From positions 98,633-162,632 of the forward strand of contig JAKVCR010000016.1 of NCBI GenBank assembly GCA_022448985.1: a stretch of DNA of 64,000 nucleotides, given 5' to 3'. A model generated the notes under the pieces. It worked only from the letters and a program-made list of their open reading frames with translations, ran no database searches and was not told where the DNA came from. Both the position numbers and the translations under genes were made by a program. The stretch comes from Roseibacillus sp. GTDB taxonomy: Bacteria; Verrucomicrobiota; Verrucomicrobiia; Verrucomicrobiales; Akkermansiaceae. Each line of letters opens with the position of its first letter. Position 1 is the stretch's first letter. Shown in pieces: positions 2,691 to 13,257 of this stretch.

Positions 2691-5600
2691 CTATCTCCCC
2701 TCTTCCTCCTCCACGATCTTGGTAACCGAACTATGGTCCTCATACTGCTGGACAAGCTCTTGCACCTGCTCCCAGAGCTTCTTTTCCTCGTCCTTCATCT
2801 GCTTGAGAAGGTGCTTCGTGGAACTATGGAACGTGTAACCGATTTCATACGCCTGCTGGTGATCGTCCCCGGCATTGCGCTCCCATACCAGTTCCATGAC
2901 CCGCTTCATGGAAGGGGCCGAGACCCTGATAAGGCCGGTGTAGCTGGCCCACGTCTTGTTGTAGGATGAGATCGCGTCTTCCCGCATCCCGCGTTTGTCA
3001 TAGGACTGGGACAGTAAAAACGAGACCTCGGCCGCATAGCGGCGATAGCCTTCGGTGGTGAGGTATTCCTTGGAGCGGGTGGTCACGTCTTCCCAGTCGC
3101 CCTTGGCCGCCAGGATGGTGACAATCCGGTAGAGAGCCCGCTCCTGCTGTTTCTTCTGCGGAGCGTTCTTGAAGACATGCTCCAGGCTCTCCACCGCCTT
3201 GAGCTTCTCGGTCGGGCTCTGGGAGCTCCCGAGGATGTCCGCCAATCCGAAATTGGCATTAAACCGGTAGGACTGGTCTTCGCGACCCACCACTGCGTTG
3301 TAGTAGGACAGCGCCGCCCGGGGTGTCCCGGTTCTTTCCCGCAGGTAGTCACCGAGGCGCACGAGCACATAGTTGGTAAGCTGGGCGGGCTGAAACTCAT
3401 TCTTCAGGTCGCGGAAAAGGACGCCGACCATGGCATCCGCAAGACGCTTGTCAGCGGGATTCTCCTCCTTGTCGGCCTTCTTGCTCTTCTCCTCAAACAC
3501 CGTGATGAGCGCAATCCGCAGGAGAGCCTGGGCTTCCTTGTTGCCGGAGTCGATTCCGGGGAAGTTGTAATAGTGCTCCTTGAGCTCGTCCTCGTTGTGG
3601 TTCTCCAGATAGGCCCGGGTGTAGGAATTGATGGCCTCCTCCAGCCCAAAGGCCCCGGCCACCGCGGCAAGCTCTGCAATCACTCCCTGCAGCCGCTCAA
3701 GGGCTTCCTCTTCGCGACCCACCACCGTGAGGGGATGGACCCCGGCCACCGCGGTCTGCGCCTTGTAGGGCGAGGCCGATCCGTGATCCTTCCAGAACTC
3801 GTCGTAATAGGGAACGGCGTCCTCCACCCGCGGGTTCTCCGCCTTCCCCCGCTTTTCCTGCCCGAGCAGTCCGACGAGGTAGAAGAGGGATTCCCCTACC
3901 ACGATGGTATTTTCACGGCGCTTGGCGAGTTCCATCGCCTTCTTGTAGTAGTCCTCCGCCGGATCCCACTCTTCCTGCGTCTGAAAGACGTTGCCCTTCA
4001 GGTTGAACGCCATGTCCATGATATCGCTGTTGGGAAACTCGCTCTCGAGACGATTGAGCTTTACGAGGGCAGGATCGAGCTCGTCCTCGGCAAAGTGGCA
4101 GTTGGCCCGGTCATACAGCGCAAAGGGGAGGTAGATATTCTTGCCCGGATCCGGATACTTGGAGAGAAAGACGTCGAGAAGTTCGGCGGCCTTGGCCCAG
4201 TACTGGAGCCGGGAGAGGTTCGACCCCTGGAAGTAGAGCGCCGCCATGCGAAACTGGCTCTTCTCATACATCTCCACGTGCTCGTCGAGAAACTTGCGGG
4301 CCGTGTCATACTGTCCCGTGTAATAGTAACTGCCGCCGAGAACATGAAGGCAGATGTCGTGCTGCTTGGAGGGCGCGGGCAGCTTGGGCAGCATGATCGT
4401 GGCCACCTCAATGCACTTCTCGTACTCCCCTTCCATGAAAAGGCTGGTCAGCATCATGCTGCGCACCGACTCCACATGCTTGCTGTCGGGGAAGTCCTTA
4501 AGGAAAAGGCTCCCGTATTTCTCGGTCACCAGTACCTCCCCGATAATGGCGGAGGTCCGGACCAGGTTATAGAGGTACTCCTCGCGCTTCTTGGACTTGT
4601 TGTAGTAGAGTTCCAGCTGCTCATAAGCGGCGAAAGCGCCTCGAACGTTCTTATATTGTTCGTGAATGTAGGCCGTGGCCGCAGTGGCGATCACCTCGTG
4701 AGGATCCCCCGAGCGCCACTGATTGTTCAGCTCCTCAAGGTCGGCCTCAAGAATCTCCTTATGGATCTGGCGGTTGCTTTGCGGCGGGTCCTGGAACTGG
4801 CGCTCGACAATGCCGATCTGGGCCAGGCGGGCCTTGATGTCGTCGATAGAGGCCTTGGTGCTGGGCACAAGGGCATAGAGCTCAAAGGCGGAACGTTCCA
4901 TTTCAGCATCCAGGGCATCGGCCGCCAGCTTCATAAATACCGGGGCGAAACTGTGCATCTTGAAGGGTTCGAGCTTGATGTCGGCCCGGTTCTTCCCGAG
5001 GAAGTCCATCAGGGCCTGCTCATTCTGCTTCTCGATAACCGCTTCCACCAGGGCCTGGAATCCCACCATGATTCCCTCGTCGGGCGTGGGGAAGGTTTCC
5101 TTGTTATCGATCGCTATTTCAAGGTTCTCAATTCCACCGGGAACCTGGAAAAGCTTGAAGTGCGCCATCGCCATGTTCACGTAAAAGGCGCCCCTCTGGT
5201 AGGTGTCCCGCTTTTTATCACGCTCCTGCAGGAATTTCTTGTACATCTTGATGGCAACCTCCCACTCCTGCGCGCCGATGGCAGCGTCCCCCCACTTGAG
5301 AAGGGACTTCTTGTGATAGTGGTTGAAGCTCCCCTGAGTAGCACCGTCCAAGCCCGCCCCCCCGGCATTCTTATTGGGATACTTGGTATAGCACATCTTG
5401 AAGGACTCCATCGCCGCCTCCCACTGCCTGAGCTTCAGCTCGCAGTAGCCCTTATGGTACCAGAACCAGCCGAACTTCGGACCAAAGAGCGTCTTGGCTC
5501 GGCCGTCGTACTGGGCCACGGCCTTGGCGAGAATTGCATGGGCCTTGGCCCATTCCTTGGCGCGCATGGCGGTAAGCGAATTGGACCAGGCCGTATCGAT

Positions 5601-5693
5601 CCCTCCCTGGGCAGACGACTTATCTGGCACGCAGACCGCGCAGAAAAGGGCCAGAAGCCCGCATAGCATTCGGTTCTTGGTGAATTGAATCAT
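2691..5693 (-). CDS. Large secreted tetratricopeptide repeat protein
   Basis: ORF to 5759; likely start at MIQFTKNRMLCGLLALFCAVCVPDKSSAQ (signal peptide); many TPR-like helical units (e.g. YYKKAMELAKRRENT, YYTGQYDTARKFLDEHVEMYEKSQ). Confidence 0.85.
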   Translation of the reverse strand: MIQFTKNRMLCGLLALFCAVCVPDKSSAQGGIDTAWSNSLTAMRAKEWAKAHAILAKAVAQYDGRAKTLFGPKFGWFWYHKGYCELKLRQWEAAMESFKMCYTKYPNKNAGGAGLDGATQGSFNHYHKKSLLKWGDAAIGAQEWEVAIKMYKKFLQERDKKRDTYQRGAFYVNMAMAHFKLFQVPGGIENLEIAIDNKETFPTPDEGIMVGFQALVEAVIEKQNEQALMDFLGKNRADIKLEPFKMHSFAPVFMKLAADALDAEMERSAFELYALVPSTKASIDDIKARLAQIGIVERQFQDPPQSNRQIHKEILEADLEELNNQWRSGDPHEVIATAATAYIHEQYKNVRGAFAAYEQLELYYNKSKKREEYLYNLVRTSAIIGEVLVTEKYGSLFLKDFPDSKHVESVRSMMLTSLFMEGEYEKCIEVATIMLPKLPAPSKQHDICLHVLGGSYYYTGQYDTARKFLDEHVEMYEKSQFRMAALYFQGSNLSRLQYWAKAAELLDVFLSKYPDPGKNIYLPFALYDRANCHFAEDELDPALVKLNRLESEFPNSDIMDMAFNLKGNVFQTQEEWDPAEDYYKKAMELAKRRENTIVVGESLFYLVGLLGQEKRGKAENPRVEDAVPYYDEFWKDHGSASPYKAQTAVAGVHPLTVVGREEEALERLQGVIAELAAVAGAFGLEEAINSYTRAYLENHNEDELKEHYYNFPGIDSGNKEAQALLRIALITVFEEKSKKADKEENPADKRLADAMVGVLFRDLKNEFQPAQLTNYVLVRLGDYLRERTGTPRAALSYYNAVVGREDQSYRFNANFGLADILGSSQSPTEKLKAVESLEHVFKNAPQKKQQERALYRIVTILAAKGDWEDVTTRSKEYLTTEGYRRYAAEVSFLLSQSYDKRGMREDAISSYNKTWASYTGLIRVSAPSMKRVMELVWERNAGDDHQQAYEIGYTFHSSTKHLLKQMKDEEKKLWEQVQELVQQYEDHSSVTKIVEEEEGR

Positions 5694-5845
5694 GACAAAG
5701 GAATTTCTAATATGGGTTGATCTTCTCTCAAAAACAGAGCCGCCCGGCAAGAACACCAACGCACGTGCTTGGTTTTTCTTAGATCCTGCCCCGGGAATCC
5801 ATCAGAAAATCGCTGTATGGCAGCGAAGAAGGACGGGGCTATAAC

Positions 5846-6331
5846 CTATTTGTTCTGCTCATCCTGAGCCACCAGGTCAGTAAAGGTGACTGTAGTAATC
5901 TTATGCTTGGCGAGGTGGTTGAGCACATCGGACACCACCTGCTGCTCAGCCTCGGCCTCGACGTAAACCTGAACCAGGGGCTTGTTGTTTCCCGCCTTGG
6001 CTGCCGCGGCATAGATCTCAAGGCGCTGGTCGAGAAGCGGAAGGGTCCGCTCGGTCCCCTGCGCTTCGGTATCGAGCAACTCCTGGGCCGCTCCCACGTT
6101 CGCGTAGATTTCCCCCCCTTGGCTGATCTTGATGAAAAACGGCTGGATATCCGGCTGGGCCTCCGAAGGGGCTGCGGAGGGCAGGGCCATGCTGTTATCC
6201 CGTTCCTTCTGCTTAATGGTAGTCGTCACCAGGAAATAGATGAGAAGTAAGAAACAGATATCAATGAGCGGAGAGATGCTCAACTCGGGCTCGTCCTCCT
6301 CGAGGTTCTCGGCGCGGCGATGTCTTGCCAT
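5846..6331 (-). CDS. ExbD/TolR family biopolymer transport protein
   Basis: LSISPLIDICFLLLIYFLVTTTI near the N-terminus is the ExbD TM signature. Confidence 0.88.
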   Translation of the reverse strand: MARHRRAENLEEDEPELSISPLIDICFLLLIYFLVTTTIKQKERDNSMALPSAAPSEAQPDIQPFFIKISQGGEIYANVGAAQELLDTEAQGTERTLPLLDQRLEIYAAAAKAGNNKPLVQVYVEAEAEQQVVSDVLNHLAKHKITTVTFTDLVAQDEQNK

Positions 6332-6353
6332 GGGTTCGGATCTCCTTGCTACA

Positions 6354-6824
6354 CTAACTCTTGCGGGACCAGAGGCTCACGAAAATGACCTCGTTTACTC
6401 CCGCGGCTGCGGCCGCGCGAATAACCCGGCGAACATAGGTGAAGTGAACCTTGCCATCTGCCCTGAGGTGCAGACGGGCCGTCTGGCCCTTGAGATCCCA
6501 CTTCTCCTTTTCCTTCTTGATGAAATCCACCAGATCCTCGTCGTCAACGAAGATCTCCTTGCCATCCGCTCTTCGGAAACGGCCCTCCCCGGCGTGCTCA
6601 TCGCTGTAAACGTTGACCACGATACGACCCATCTTGTCGTTCTGCTTCTCCGAGTAACGCGCAATCGGCACCTGCACCCTCTTATCCATCTCCACGATAA
6701 TGAGGGTAGCGTTGACGATAAAGAAGATCAGCAGGAGGAATACCATGTCGATCATGGGCGACATGTCGACCTTTGTATCATCGTCCTGCTCCTGCTGGAC
6801 TGCGCGCAGTTTCGTAGAGGCCAT
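6354..6824 (-). CDS. ExbD/TolR family biopolymer transport protein (second copy)
   Basis: DDTKVDMSPMIDMVFLLLIFFIVNATLI ExbD TM signature. Confidence 0.9.
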   Translation of the reverse strand: MASTKLRAVQQEQDDDTKVDMSPMIDMVFLLLIFFIVNATLIIVEMDKRVQVPIARYSEKQNDKMGRIVVNVYSDEHAGEGRFRRADGKEIFVDDEDLVDFIKKEKEKWDLKGQTARLHLRADGKVHFTYVRRVIRAAAAAGVNEVIFVSLWSRKS

Positions 6825-6871
6825 TGTTCGGACTGATTCGGTTGCCGGGAAACAGGGACTCCCCCGTCCTT

Positions 6872-7660
6872 TTAGACGGCAATCCCTTCCGGGATCTTAG
6901 CCAAATATGCGTCCTGATTAACGGTCTGGATGGAGGCGTTGATCAACTCCTCGGAGGTGTGGTGAGCTTCGGCCACCAGGTTATTGAGCCTGTTCTTGAA
7001 GTAGAAGTAGGCGATCAGCGAAGGGATGGCGGTAAGCAGACCCCAGAAGGTGGTGAGCAGCGCGATCTGGATATCGCCGGCCAACTCGGCAGGTTCAGCT
7101 GCGCCAGTGGCACTCAGCACCCCGAACGCGTTGACCATCCCGTAGACCGTCCCGAATAGTCCAAGCATGGGCGCGGCCTGTGCAATCAGGGCGATATAGT
7201 TAATCCACACCATGTTCTTACGGCTTTCATTGATGGTGAAATCCGCGACGGCATCCTCAACCCCATCCCGTCCGAGGTCCTCGGGCTTGGTCGCATCAAT
7301 GTTGGGAAGGGAGTAGGCAAGCATGCGTCCGACGTAACTCGGATGGGAAGCGGCGAGCTCAATGGCGGAGCGCACGCGACAGTTCATCATGTGGTCAAGC
7401 AGCGCTGCCTTGAGATCATCGGGACAGAACTTCGGCTTGGTGAGGTTGATGAAATTGAACACGCTCAGGGCGAGGAGGGCGATAATCGCAAGGGCGATCA
7501 AAATCATTGGCCAGCCTCCGCTGAGAACCCATTTTTCGAGAGCATTCATCTCCTTCCCCCCGGTATCGTCCTGCGCCAGAAGGGCGGGAGCCGAAACAAA
7601 GAGAGTAGCGAGCACTAGCGAAAAAACGCTGAGAAGACGTTTCTTGGTTGTATAGATCAT
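6872..7660 (-). CDS. MotA/TolQ/ExbB proton channel family protein
   Basis: Signal-like N-terminus; AAPMLGLFGTVYGMVNAFGVLS and IQIALLTTFWGLLTAIPSLIAYFYFKNR are TolQ/ExbB motifs. Confidence 0.92.
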   Translation of the reverse strand: MIYTTKKRLLSVFSLVLATLFVSAPALLAQDDTGGKEMNALEKWVLSGGWPMILIALAIIALLALSVFNFINLTKPKFCPDDLKAALLDHMMNCRVRSAIELAASHPSYVGRMLAYSLPNIDATKPEDLGRDGVEDAVADFTINESRKNMVWINYIALIAQAAPMLGLFGTVYGMVNAFGVLSATGAAEPAELAGDIQIALLTTFWGLLTAIPSLIAYFYFKNRLNNLVAEAHHTSEELINASIQTVNQDAYLAKIPEGIAV

Positions 7661-7978: not shown

Positions 7979-8632
7979 TCACGCCTTCTTCGTCCGTACG
8001 GGCGACTTCCGGGCAGGAAAAAGGGTGCGGCATATCTCACAGACCCTGCCATCACATCCACGTGCGGTGCAATGCTCCCGCCCGTAGAAAATGATGCGCA
8101 GATGCAGTTTGTTCCAGCTCTCCTCGCGAAAGAGCGTTTTCAGAGACCGCTCGGTATCGGCTACATTTTTCCCGCTCGCCAGTTTCCAGCGCTGGGCGAG
8201 ACGGTGAATGTGGGTGTCCACTGGAAATGCTGGCACCCCAAAGGCCTGTGAGATCACCACGGAAGCCGTCTTGTGCCCTACGCCGGGAAGAGCCTCCAAA
8301 GCAGCCAAAGAGCCCGGAACCTGCCCGTCATGGATCTCAACAAGGATCCGGGAAAGTTCCGAGATCGCCCGAGCCTTGCGGGGAGCAAGGCCGCAGGAAC
8401 GAATAGCGGCCCGGATCTCCTCCACCGGCAGGGCCTGCATTCTCTCTGGCGTATGCGCAAGGGCGAACAGTCCGGGGGTGACCTTGTTGACCCGTTCGTC
8501 CGTGCACTGGGCCGAGAGAAGGACTGCTACCAGCAGGGTGAAGGCATCCCGGTGGTCCAACGGAATCGGCGTCTCGGGATACAACTCCGCGAGACGCCGA
8601 TGAACAAATTCAGCTCGCTCTGCCCTGGTCAT
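7979..8632 (-). CDS. nth: Endonuclease III (HhH-GPD base excision glycosylase)
   Basis: LLSAQCTDERVNKVTPGLF, ALPGVGHKTASVVISQAFG, FPVDTHIHRLAQRWKL; C-terminal Cys cluster. Confidence 0.92.
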   Translation of the reverse strand: MTRAERAEFVHRRLAELYPETPIPLDHRDAFTLLVAVLLSAQCTDERVNKVTPGLFALAHTPERMQALPVEEIRAAIRSCGLAPRKARAISELSRILVEIHDGQVPGSLAALEALPGVGHKTASVVISQAFGVPAFPVDTHIHRLAQRWKLASGKNVADTERSLKTLFREESWNKLHLRIIFYGREHCTARGCDGRVCEICRTLFPARKSPVRTKKA

Positions 8633-8653: not shown

Positions 8654-9391
8654 TCATAGAGAGGGCCTCTTGCCTCTCGATTCTTCGCGCAGAGCTACCC
8701 GTCGAATGTGGATCTTGGCAAGGGCGGCGTAATACATGCGCGCACAATGTTCAAACCTCGTCCGTCCACGCAGGAGGTTCGCAGCCTGCTCCCAGGATCC
8801 CCACCTGACGACGTGAATTTCAGCATCACGGGTGGCCCACTTCCGCATCAGGCGCAGGGTCGGGTGGTAGATGTCGATCGTGTTCGTGCCCACGAGAGAG
8901 GACCCGTAATCATCCACCACGTAGACATGTGGCAGTCCCTTGATCCGAAACACAGTGCCGACCGGGTAGCGGGACCAGTCTGCCGCCGCACTGCGAACCC
9001 GCCCGTATTTCAGGGTCGTCCCCATGGCGTTAAGGCGCCCGACTGCGCCTACTTCGTTCTCCTGGTGGGAATAGGACGTGGTTCGAACGTAACGATGGCG
9101 GATATCCTCGTTAAAATAGGTCGGCCGGCCATGCCGGTCGACGGGAAGGGTTGCGGCCGCGGCTTTCACCGCCAGAGCAACCTCCCCGGGCAGGAAGCCA
9201 TCAGGTTGACTGCTGGCGCCCCCGGAGGGCCAGAGCGCGGAGTCCCACGAAGAGCGCTGGTCACTCACCCGCTCGGCTTCCACCTTGGAAAGGAGGCGGG
9301 GCTGATGACTGGCACGCTGGAAAAAGCTACAGCTGGAGAGCGCTCCAAGAGCAATCGCGGCCAGAACCGCTTTCAAAAACAGGACTTTCAT
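8654..9391 (-). CDS. 3D (Asp-Asp-Asp) domain-containing lipoprotein
   Basis: Lipobox-like ALSSCSFF; GAVGRLNAMGTTLKYG...YPVGTVFRIKGLPHVYVVDDYGSSLVGTNTIDIYHPT resembles the 3D domain. Confidence 0.75.
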   Translation of the reverse strand: MKVLFLKAVLAAIALGALSSCSFFQRASHQPRLLSKVEAERVSDQRSSWDSALWPSGGASSQPDGFLPGEVALAVKAAAATLPVDRHGRPTYFNEDIRHRYVRTTSYSHQENEVGAVGRLNAMGTTLKYGRVRSAAADWSRYPVGTVFRIKGLPHVYVVDDYGSSLVGTNTIDIYHPTLRLMRKWATRDAEIHVVRWGSWEQAANLLRGRTRFEHCARMYYAALAKIHIRRVALREESRGKRPSL

Positions 9392-9667: not shown

Positions 9668-11341
9668 TCAACTACCGTCCTCTGCTTCTTCCAGCAAACT
9701 GCGAATCTTGGCGGGAACGAAGGAGGCCTCAGTCGACTCATCCGCCGCAAGCTTCATCTGGTGACGGAGGATGTGCAGGGCAATGGGGGGAACATAATCC
9801 TCAAGGCAGGACCGCAAAGCCGCAACCGCATCCATCCCGGTAATCTTCACCTGCCGATAACACTTCACTGCGAGGGCCTCCGCAGCACCCGGGGTAAGGA
9901 AATCAGGCACGCGATCCTTCAATTCTCCAAAGGCTTCCTTGGGGATATCGAGCCCACGTTTGCGGGACAGTCCCCGCAGGAGGGCGAAGCCTTGCGCAGG
10001 CTCGGTGGTCGGAAAAAGTGGAATCTTGATATCAACCCGCCCCGGCCGTTTAAGATCAACTTCGATCAGGTCCGGCCGGCTGGAGGCGAGGACCCAGAGG
10101 AGATGGCCACGGTTGTCAGGATCCGACATCTCGCGTGCTATCATGGAATAGACCCGGCTCGACACTCCGGAGTCCCCGCTCGCCGATTGACGCTGTCCAA
10201 GCGCCTGATCGGCCTCGTCCACGAACACGATGCAGCGGCCCAGGGCGTGTAGGAGTGAAAAAATTTTCTCGAGGTTGGCTTCTGTACTGCCCACCCAGCG
10301 ATCACGGAAGTTGCGCAGGGTAACCACTGGCACCCCTGCCTCCCCGGCCAGACATTCCGCCAGATATGTCTTCCCGGTCCCCACCGGTCCACAGAAGAGG
10401 TAGCCCATGGGCAACGCCTGCAACTCGTCCTTGGCCCAGAGGGCCAGATCCTGGCGCAACCAATCCTTCACCGAGTCGAGTCCGATAACATCCTCAAGGT
10501 CGCGGTCGGGTTCAACGAACTCGATAAGCCCCTCACAGTCCTTCTCCACCAGCGTCTTCTTCAATTCCCCAAGGTCCTCGGCATCAAGCGGCCGGTTCTC
10601 ATGGTTGTGCCGCTGCAGGAGCCCCTGTACCGAGCTGAGGCTGGCGCCCGAAAGGCGGCGGGCCGGAAGGTCGAGGCGACCTTCAAAGTTCTGCAATCCG
10701 ACGGGATAGTCCGATCGCAGGGCCTCCAGAGCTCCCCCCAGCTCCTCTTCGCCAGGGAGCGGGATCTGCTGGACGCTGGTTCGCGGGTTCCCCGCTACCA
10801 GCGGATGCAGATTGTTGATGTGATCGGAGAGTAAAAACGCTGCCTGCCCGTTTTCATTGAGCCGGGCATCGGCCGCCCAGGAGCGAAGGAGAGAAGCCAC
10901 TGCGCTAAGGTTGTTACTGTAGGCGGTGGGGTTGTTGGGTGCCACCAGGTGAGCCTGGCGGATGATGATCGCCACTCGCGGGGCCTCGCGTTTGATGGCC
11001 CGCAGGTTCCTCAGGTAGATGAGATAGTGCGTGAGATCCCGGACGGCCGCGAGAGGATCGGTCGGCGACGGTCGCAGCCGATCCTCTTCTCCAGAGGACC
11101 AGTCTGCCACCAATTCCTGCCCGCGCTCCACACGCAACCCGAGGCCCAACTCATAGGAGAAAACCACCTCGAACTGTGGGAGGAGGACTTCCAGCAGAAA
11201 ATCATTGAGCCGTCCCAACCGCGGATTTTCACCGGGCAACAGGAAGAGGTCATTAATATTGCCATGCAGGATAAAGCAGCCCGCCGTCCCGGACTCATAC
11301 CGGGCGATGACTTCACGGGCCCAGGAAGGCAGTCCGGCCAT
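9668..11341 (-). CDS. AAA+ ATPase with degenerate N-terminal AAA-like domain (Ycf46/Vps4-like architecture)
   Basis: Walker A GPVGTGKT, Walker B CIVFVDEADQALG, Arg-rich SRPDLIEVDLKRPGRVDIKI; N-terminal RVAIIIRQAHLVAP resembles a degenerate Walker B. Confidence 0.85.
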   Translation of the reverse strand: MAGLPSWAREVIARYESGTAGCFILHGNINDLFLLPGENPRLGRLNDFLLEVLLPQFEVVFSYELGLGLRVERGQELVADWSSGEEDRLRPSPTDPLAAVRDLTHYLIYLRNLRAIKREAPRVAIIIRQAHLVAPNNPTAYSNNLSAVASLLRSWAADARLNENGQAAFLLSDHINNLHPLVAGNPRTSVQQIPLPGEEELGGALEALRSDYPVGLQNFEGRLDLPARRLSGASLSSVQGLLQRHNHENRPLDAEDLGELKKTLVEKDCEGLIEFVEPDRDLEDVIGLDSVKDWLRQDLALWAKDELQALPMGYLFCGPVGTGKTYLAECLAGEAGVPVVTLRNFRDRWVGSTEANLEKIFSLLHALGRCIVFVDEADQALGQRQSASGDSGVSSRVYSMIAREMSDPDNRGHLLWVLASSRPDLIEVDLKRPGRVDIKIPLFPTTEPAQGFALLRGLSRKRGLDIPKEAFGELKDRVPDFLTPGAAEALAVKCYRQVKITGMDAVAALRSCLEDYVPPIALHILRHQMKLAADESTEASFVPAKIRSLLEEAEDGS

Positions 11342-11370
11342 GGCTTTACAATGATTCTGCGCTCGTCGCC

Positions 11371-12135
11371 CTACTCACTGACGGAAGGACCCATCGTTCC
11401 CCTTGAGCTATCCTCTTCTTCGCCCTCTCCGCCCCCGGGCGCTGTTTCCGTATCCTCCAGCTCGATGCCCTCGGCAGCAGCAAAATCAGCAAGGGCGAGT
11501 TCCTCCATGGCGGATTTTTCAGCCTCCGCAATCTCGATTTCACTCAAATCCATGCTGTCACGGGCCACCCGGGCCCGGCCCGCAGCCTTGGTCCGCTCCT
11601 CTTCCACCATTTCTTCGAGACGGTTAAGGGTATCTCCTGAGCCCCCGATCTTGGTTACCATCCCGGCGGCCATCTCGTTAAGTTCGGCCGTGGCCCTCTG
11701 CACCTCCATGTCGTTGATGCCCCTCGTGATCTTCTCAATTCGCGCCTTGGCCTCCCGCACGCTGGTATCACGGGCGCGGATCAACTCCCTGTAGCGCTTT
11801 TCCGCTTCCTCAAACTGGACCGCCACCTCATCGTGAGACTTGCCAACCTGCTTGAGCTTGAGCGCCAGTTGCCCCGCCGCGGCCCGGTTTCCCGCTTTCA
11901 AATTGGCGGCCGTCTTGGCCCGCAATTCCTCTTCCTGCTCATCAAGTTTCCGCGCCCTTGAATTCAGATCCTCCACCAGGGCCGCGTGAGAGGCGAGAGC
12001 GGTATTGAACTTGGTCGTCTGCTTCCGAAGGTTTTCTTTCTCGACCTCAAGCAAGGCCTTCGGATTCGCCCTCTCTGCCTTTCCAATCAGGCGCAGAAAA
12101 ATCCCCTTAATGATATTGCCGATCCGCTTGAACAT
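11371..12135 (-). CDS. PspA/IM30 (ESCRT-III superfamily) protein
   Basis: MFKRIGNIIKGIFLRLIGKAERANPKALLEVEKENLRKQ and long coiled coil with AEKRYRELIRARDTSVREAKARIEK; start placed at the internal Met 12135. Confidence 0.75.
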   Translation of the reverse strand: MFKRIGNIIKGIFLRLIGKAERANPKALLEVEKENLRKQTTKFNTALASHAALVEDLNSRARKLDEQEEELRAKTAANLKAGNRAAAGQLALKLKQVGKSHDEVAVQFEEAEKRYRELIRARDTSVREAKARIEKITRGINDMEVQRATAELNEMAAGMVTKIGGSGDTLNRLEEMVEEERTKAAGRARVARDSMDLSEIEIAEAEKSAMEELALADFAAAEGIELEDTETAPGGGEGEEEDSSRGTMGPSVSE

Positions 12136-12336: not shown

Positions 12337-13257
12337 GTGGTTTGGGGCTTGGACCCCCCGGTGCTTCCTGCTTTTCTTAAGGCCGTGTCACGAGCCGCTC
12401 CCCTCATCAAGTATCTCAGGCAGCTGGAGTGTGGTGGGCAGACGCATATTCGCTTGGATGAAGAGGCCAAGGAGGTGCTGCGGAGTCGGTTGCGGATGCG
12501 GAAGGAAAGCACTTCAACGCCTCCCCCGCTCCGCTCGCAAGGAGTTGCCAGCCTGAGCGCGGAAGCGAACCCGTCGGACCGGAAGGAGACGACCCCGCCA
12601 TCCGTTCCCGCCGTGCAGGCCGAGGGGGTCACCGCCACCGAAAAGCTCGCCTCCCTTAAATCCCAGGCCGAGAATTGGGGCCCGGCCCGCTCTCTGGAAT
12701 CGCTGCGCGAGCCCATGGTCTTCGCGGTCGGGAATCCGGCCGCTGATCTCATGCTGGTCGGTGAGGCTCCGGGTTACGAAGAGGAACGCCGACACGAGCC
12801 CTTCGTGGGCAGGGCTGGCCAAAAACTCGACCAGATCCTGGCCGCGATGGGTTTCGCCCGCGAAGACGTCTACATTTCCAATATCTGCAAATTTCGACCG
12901 GCCCTTAAAAACCAGACTACCAACAACCGCAAACCGACACCCCAGGAGATGAATGCCTGCCTTCCCTTCGTGCGGGCGGAGATCGAAATCGTGCAACCTA
13001 GGTGCATTGTGGCTCTGGGTGGAACGGCGGCGGAGGGCCTGCTCAACTACCAGGGGCAACCGGTAGGGCGAATGCGTGGACGCTGGCATGAATTCGAAGG
13101 CATCCCGGTGCGGGTCACCTACCACCCTTCCTATCTTCTCCACAACGACTCCGCGGTGAGCGAGAAGCGCAAAGTCTGGGATGACATGTTAAGTGTTCTG
13201 GAGTTTCTTGGTATGCCGATTTCTGAGAAACAGCGCGGATTTTTCGCTGAAAAATAG
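12337..13257 (+). CDS. Uracil-DNA glycosylase (family 4-like)
   Basis: LMLVGEAPGYEEERRHEPFVGRAGQKLDQILAAMG, VYISNICKFRP, VTYHPSYLLHN; long low-similarity N-terminus. Confidence 0.88.
   Translation: MVWGLDPPVLPAFLKAVSRAAPLIKYLRQLECGGQTHIRLDEEAKEVLRSRLRMRKESTSTPPPLRSQGVASLSAEANPSDRKETTPPSVPAVQAEGVTATEKLASLKSQAENWGPARSLESLREPMVFAVGNPAADLMLVGEAPGYEEERRHEPFVGRAGQKLDQILAAMGFAREDVYISNICKFRPALKNQTTNNRKPTPQEMNACLPFVRAEIEIVQPRCIVALGGTAAEGLLNYQGQPVGRMRGRWHEFEGIPVRVTYHPSYLLHNDSAVSEKRKVWDDMLSVLEFLGMPISEKQRGFFAEK

Follow-up and report, generated by a model that had tools for sequence, protein, structure and literature searches.

The window, i.e., the whole 64,000-nucleotide stretch of Roseibacillus sp. 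DNA analyzed here, contains a gene encoding a PspA/IM30-like protein and, immediately downstream, a gene encoding a protein with two AAA domains, and these two genes are inherited jointly among related genomes, even where they are not neighbors. This coupled inheritance of even unlinked genes makes the pair a good candidate for the bacterial counterpart, so far missing, of the ESCRT-III/Vps4 membrane-remodeling team, as does a short conserved C-terminal tag of the PspA-like protein that the clearest relatives lacking the motor do not possess. Ravi et al. (2024; PMC11237479) had already predicted both the pairing and its analogy to Vps4, and the window pair is a well-delimited variant of that prediction. 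The present analysis adds a phylogenetic profile of both genes, their occurrence in a two-gene form and a tail motif that is absent where the ATPase is absent.

Examination of the region revealed the two ORFs to have the coordinates and strands (Table 1) assigned to them in an earlier note on this DNA, with the PspA-like gene upstream of the AAA gene and the intergenic gap (positions 11342-11370) being exactly 29 bp, as that note had also reported. The PspA start codon at position 12135 (MFKR...) is backed by orthologs in the PspA-family alignment. The window genome (G000) is a MAG of 4.6 Mb that is 96.9% complete, with 5.6% contamination. A search of this genome with the PF04012 profile revealed no canonical PspA, nor did a genome search reveal PspC, in agreement with the earlier placement of the pair in a setting other than that of PspF. 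As for the surroundings, the 3D-domain gene listed in Table 1 often adjoins the ATPase gene (10 loci), although its membership in the system is not established, while an endonuclease III gene (positions 7979-8632, minus strand) is found near the ATPase gene at nine loci; in several genomes, both lie downstream of the ATPase gene even with PspA located elsewhere. A uracil-DNA glycosylase gene (positions 12337-13257, plus strand) is divergent from the PspA-like gene and adjoins it also where the ATPase gene has moved away (loci L129, L142, and L153). Finally, positions 2691-7660 (minus strand) hold genes encoding a TPR protein, two ExbD proteins and one MotA/ExbB protein, comprising an energizing cluster of the TonB/Tol type.

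Table 1. The PspA/AAA gene pair, its sequence motifs and an adjoining gene in the window.
Feature	Position	Strand	Basis
PspA/IM30-like protein, 254 aa	11371..12135	-	ORF and translation; PF04012 in orthologs; AlphaFold2; Foldseek
N-terminal basic amphipathic helix (alpha-0), codons 2-23, probable membrane anchor	12067..12132	-	model helix 2-23, pLDDT about 55
Conserved tail peptide RGTMGPSVSE, codons 245-254, proposed ATPase docking tag	11374..11403	-	alignment of 55 sequences
AAA protein, 557 aa: degenerate N-terminal AAA (about 1-262), active C-terminal AAA (about 280-445), C-terminal helical part	9668..11341	-	ORF, Pfam, alignment, hhalign
Walker A GPVGTGKT, residues 318-325	10367..10390	-	conserved through ATPase family alignment
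Pore-loop-1 position FRDRWVG, residues 345-351, aromatic W349	10289..10309	-	alignment
Walker B IVFVDEAD, residues 371-378	10208..10231	-	conserved through ATPase family alignment
3D-domain lipoprotein-like gene	8654..9391	-	PF06725 E 2e-4, just under cut-off

To determine whether the two genes are coupled beyond the window genome, their distribution was considered in 98 related genomes. PspA was detected in 46 of these and the ATPase in 47, with all 46 PspA carriers containing both and G086 being the only genome with the ATPase alone (Fisher p 2e-27, with no correction for kinship). In each of the eight genera in which presence is mixed, a genome has either both genes or neither. Indeed, presence and absence agree in 97 of the 98 genomes, a value never reached in 20,000 within-genus shuffles, the best of which gave 93. 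Likewise, in a class-wide set of 384 genomes, 29 of the 30 with a strong PspA match also offered a strong ATPase match; in the exception, G651, a genome that is 90% complete, no ATPase was detected. The gene pair is thus kept beyond the window genome, as the idea of a functional unit of ESCRT-III-superfamily and AAA proteins, raised in the earlier note, had called for. In 22 of the 46 carriers, the genes lie within 6 kb of each other on one strand, 16-3084 bp apart. In the other 24 they are not so linked; G032 carries both on one contig, 409 kb apart, whereas in some of the remaining cases the split may be due only to contig ends. When the pair is split, each gene often retains its window-type outer neighbor, with the uracil-DNA glycosylase gene being beside PspA at L129, L142, and L153, and the 3D-domain and endonuclease III genes being beside the ATPase gene at L146, L148, and L152. 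As the outer neighbors of each half were kept, the gene order suggests that a once-linked arrangement broke up and that both genes were retained.

The assignment of the window protein to the PspA family draws on its relatives and on modeling. Scanned alone, the protein falls below every Pfam cut-off, whereas that of PF04012 is reached by orthologs: this profile matches 16 of the 19 family members in the alignment (E up to 0.01) and its cut-off is exceeded in 31 of the 98 related genomes, mostly by orthologs of the window protein. A phmmer search of the PDB with the protein yielded only a chance coiled-coil match, and the family profile likewise returned a chance match, plus a non-significant match to Asgard ESCRT-IIIB (E 0.26). 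When the family alignment was compared to one canonical PspA sequence using hhalign, a weak match was obtained (E 0.002). An AlphaFold2 model built on a four-sequence alignment (mean pLDDT 73; 85-96 for the hairpin) predicts helices at residues 2-23, 25-80, 84-163, and 167-222, followed by a disordered tail (residues 223-254). This corresponds to the ESCRT-III layout of an N-terminal helix, a long helical hairpin and further helices, and the best Foldseek matches of the predicted fold in the PDB were to Vipp1, PspA, and Asgard ESCRT-III (probability 0.98-1.00; E 5e-3 and worse). The first helix presents a hydrophobic moment of 0.54 and a charge of +4. Given the PF04012 matches of the orthologs, the model, the fold matches and the basic amphipathic first helix, the window protein is, as judged by sequence and model, a divergent member of the PspA/ESCRT-III superfamily, with an ESCRT-III-superfamily fold being predicted. 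In one genome lacking the ATPase, a partial PspA_IM30 match (44.5 bits) was noted at G083:C34:41977-42504; this ORF continues unlike PspA and is possibly frameshifted.

In the AAA protein, Pfam detected PF00004 at residues 315-441 (E 1.6e-24), that is, in the C-terminal half only, and it is here that the Walker A and B motifs are intact, as previously noted. Residue W349 is invariant in the ATPase-family alignment, with distant homologs retaining tryptophan or, once, tyrosine at this position, and the RW motif of pore loop 1 and the arginine pair of LKRPGR are conserved throughout the family. The N-terminal half offers no Pfam match of its own. Yet when the two halves were compared by hhalign (E about 1e-4), the Walker B, sensor 1, and arginine-finger regions fell in register, with a degenerate form of Walker B (VAIIIRQAH), the sensor 1 region and 'NPR...IPLP' of the N-terminal half being aligned with their C-terminal counterparts. 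Because the N-terminal profile aligns with the C-terminal half with its degenerate motifs in register, the protein is, by alignment, a two-tier AAA protein with a predicted inactive first tier, as the earlier description of a degenerate N-terminal AAA-like domain had proposed. An AlphaFold2 model of the ATPase from a four-sequence alignment attained a pLDDT of 40 and was discarded. Pfam scans revealed no MIT domain in 20 members of the ATPase family, no Vps4_C domain in the window ATPase or family members and no sigma-54 activation domain in the window ATPase. With neither MIT nor Vps4_C and with two AAA domains, the protein was rejected as an ortholog of Vps4, and kinship with Vps4 itself, one of the families named for comparison in the earlier note, is not supported.

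The C terminus of the PspA-like protein was next considered using an alignment of 55 sequences. The columns of the linker preceding the terminal peptide are variable, with the top residue mostly being below 45%. The peptide itself conforms to the consensus (K/G)(T/S)M(GP), with the Met column containing 93% methionine and leucine or isoleucine in three other sequences. In family f2, the protein terminates at this very methionine in all but one of six sequences (DEKTM, GGKTM), and neither G064 nor G067 has such a peptide in its canonical PspA paralog. Genomes G132 and G141 (100% and 99% complete, respectively) encode a clear PspA ortholog from which the tail peptide is missing, and the ATPase of this family was not found in either at E 1e-25. 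In G651, the ATPase-less exception described above, the tail is a degenerate KRLQP. These sequences, representing one clear clade and one uncertain case, are suggestive of a correlation between loss of the tail peptide and absence of the ATPase. The earlier note had pointed to an acidic docking tail, yet the stretch it quoted ends short of the last residues, RGTMGPSVSE. The idea of a docking tail thus survives in the form of the terminal TM(GP) peptide, while the acidic segment belongs to the variable linker.

Taken together, the two gene products probably form a compact ESCRT-III-like module at the membrane, in which the ATPase would bind the PspA tail and extract subunits. Based on its family and fold, the PspA-like protein would bind the inner membrane via its N-terminal amphipathic helix and polymerize via its helical core, with the disordered linker displaying the conserved terminal peptide. 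The inactive N-terminal AAA domain would probably serve as an adaptor or docking ring for the tail, whereas the active C-terminal AAA ring, with its aromatic pore loop, would thread PspA subunits out of the polymer at the expense of ATP, as Vps4 does with ESCRT-III. The coat would then be recycled or reshaped. What we infer is that the tail is bound and subunits are extracted, in which direction the ATPase acts and what the pair does at the membrane.

The direction of action is also where the main rival explanation differs, with the PspA-like protein instead being a regulator or membrane adaptor of an ATPase that targets other membrane proteins. Inhibition of the AAA+ protein PspF by PspA provides a precedent (PMC13051332; PMC11746142), and coupled inheritance and a tail peptide are equally compatible with such an arrangement. 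The window ATPase, however, is a classical AAA protein of the threading type, with an aromatic pore loop and no sigma-54-activator domain, and free C-terminal tails are suited to substrates of threading ATPases, so that this reversed direction is considered rather unlikely.

The pair can also be viewed against the wider ATPase family. Elsewhere in the phylum, homologs sharing 25-41% identity are encoded within a long operon (L118-L122) that comprises genes for vWA, PspA-like, solute-binding/OmpA, ABC permease, ABC ATPase, and membrane coiled-coil proteins and the ATPase. The PspA-like protein of this operon ends in a conserved RQKIAE after a linker, while in another subfamily (L124, L125, L128, and L205) a conserved LPE occupies the same place; both subfamilies adjoin homologous ATPases. 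At intermediate loci, PspA and the ATPase are separated by the membrane coiled-coil gene (L192 and L194) or by a gene for a small membrane protein (L133). The coiled-coil protein (L118-L123, L198-L204) is about 310 residues long, belongs to no Pfam family, is present in multiple copies in several relatives and may correspond to the TM Snf7-like protein that Ravi et al. described. As the window genome does not contain its gene, which was found in 18 of the 98 related genomes, it was rejected as a required third component. More distant homologs of the ATPase, one of which is 28% identical over 98% of the length, occur on Paenibacillaceae plasmids with no annotated PspA nearby; the broad ATPase family is therefore not always found beside PspA. 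Those at L156-L159 are two-tier homologs on large Paenibacillaceae plasmids, three of them near DUF262 genes.

These longer operons, in other classes, in which the ATPase and PspA-like protein are accompanied by an ABC transporter, a solute-binding OmpA-like protein and a membrane coiled-coil protein, together with the intermediate loci where a membrane protein separates both genes and the link to solute transport proposed by Ravi et al. (PMC11237479), raise the possibility that the pair is the remnant of a transport-linked envelope complex and still assembles such complexes. In the window genome, though, the membrane coiled-coil gene is absent and no such transporter genes lie beside the pair, making this improbable. 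It is scarcely credible that the genes are chance neighbors or are carried along on one shared genomic island, as they are still kept and lost jointly although about half of the carriers have them unlinked, and chance adjacency was rejected on these grounds. Just as implausible is that the AAA protein is part of an IetA-like anti-phage system, since the weak PADLOC matches to IetA (E 2.9e-11 at best) cover the generic AAA domain only and the adjoining partner is PspA rather than a subtilase; with no full-length IetA match and other genes as neighbors, defense of this type was rejected.

The ESCRT-III-like module favored here can be compared to several known systems. Ravi et al. (2024, mSystems; PMC11237479) described a PspA homolog with a protein containing two AAA+ domains, the first inactive, as well as longer operons with an ABC ATPase, a permease, a PBPB-OmpA protein and a TM Snf7-like protein, and proposed the ESCRT-III/Vps4 analogy. 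The window PspA is similarly coupled to a two-AAA ATPase with an inactive N-terminal copy, and the relatives at L118-L122 similarly lie in operons with an ABC ATPase, a permease and a PBPB-OmpA protein; their example (the neighbor of AEY64321.1) is likened to the window ATPase by description, not by sequence. Whereas their association was occasional and drawn from gene neighborhoods, here co-inheritance is near-perfect even without linkage, the system takes a two-gene form and the tail is conserved. ESCRT-III and Vps4 (CdvB and CdvC in Archaea) likewise combine an ESCRT-III-superfamily protein bearing a flexible C-terminal tail with a classical AAA protein containing an aromatic pore loop, but the window ATPase differs in its lack of MIT and Vps4_C domains and in its two AAA domains, while the polymer would involve a single PspA-type subunit ending in a peptide that is not among the known MIMs. 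PspA-PspF of the proteobacterial Psp response also joins PspA to an AAA+ protein, yet PspF is a sigma-54 enhancer-binding protein, a domain that the window ATPase lacks, and the window genome lacks PspC. Finally, at the archaeal Halo_adaptin locus (PMC10936438), a PspA-like gene lies upstream of a gene encoding a Vps4-like ATPase without a MIT domain, as in the window, although that ATPase contains a VAT-like N-terminal domain and its neighbors encode winged-helix proteins.

Bacterial PspA and Vipp1 have been reported without a clear Vps4 (PMC7615534; PMC11791191), which raises the question of how bacterial ESCRT-III polymers are recycled. No experimental study of a PspA/two-AAA pair of this kind was found in the open-access literature, to which the search was confined. 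We tentatively propose that a dedicated two-tier AAA ATPase that reads MIM-like PspA tails may be the functional counterpart of Vps4 in Bacteria, with the peptides of the different subfamilies (TM(GP), RQKIAE, and LPE) matching the respective ATPases. The window pair is a two-protein system with a candidate docking peptide, a mutable catalytic residue and natural controls in the form of relatives without ATPase and tail, and for these reasons allows the question of recycling to be tested directly. If true, Bacteria, on the one hand, and Archaea and eukaryotes, on the other, would use different ATPases for the ATP-driven remodeling of ESCRT-III polymers.
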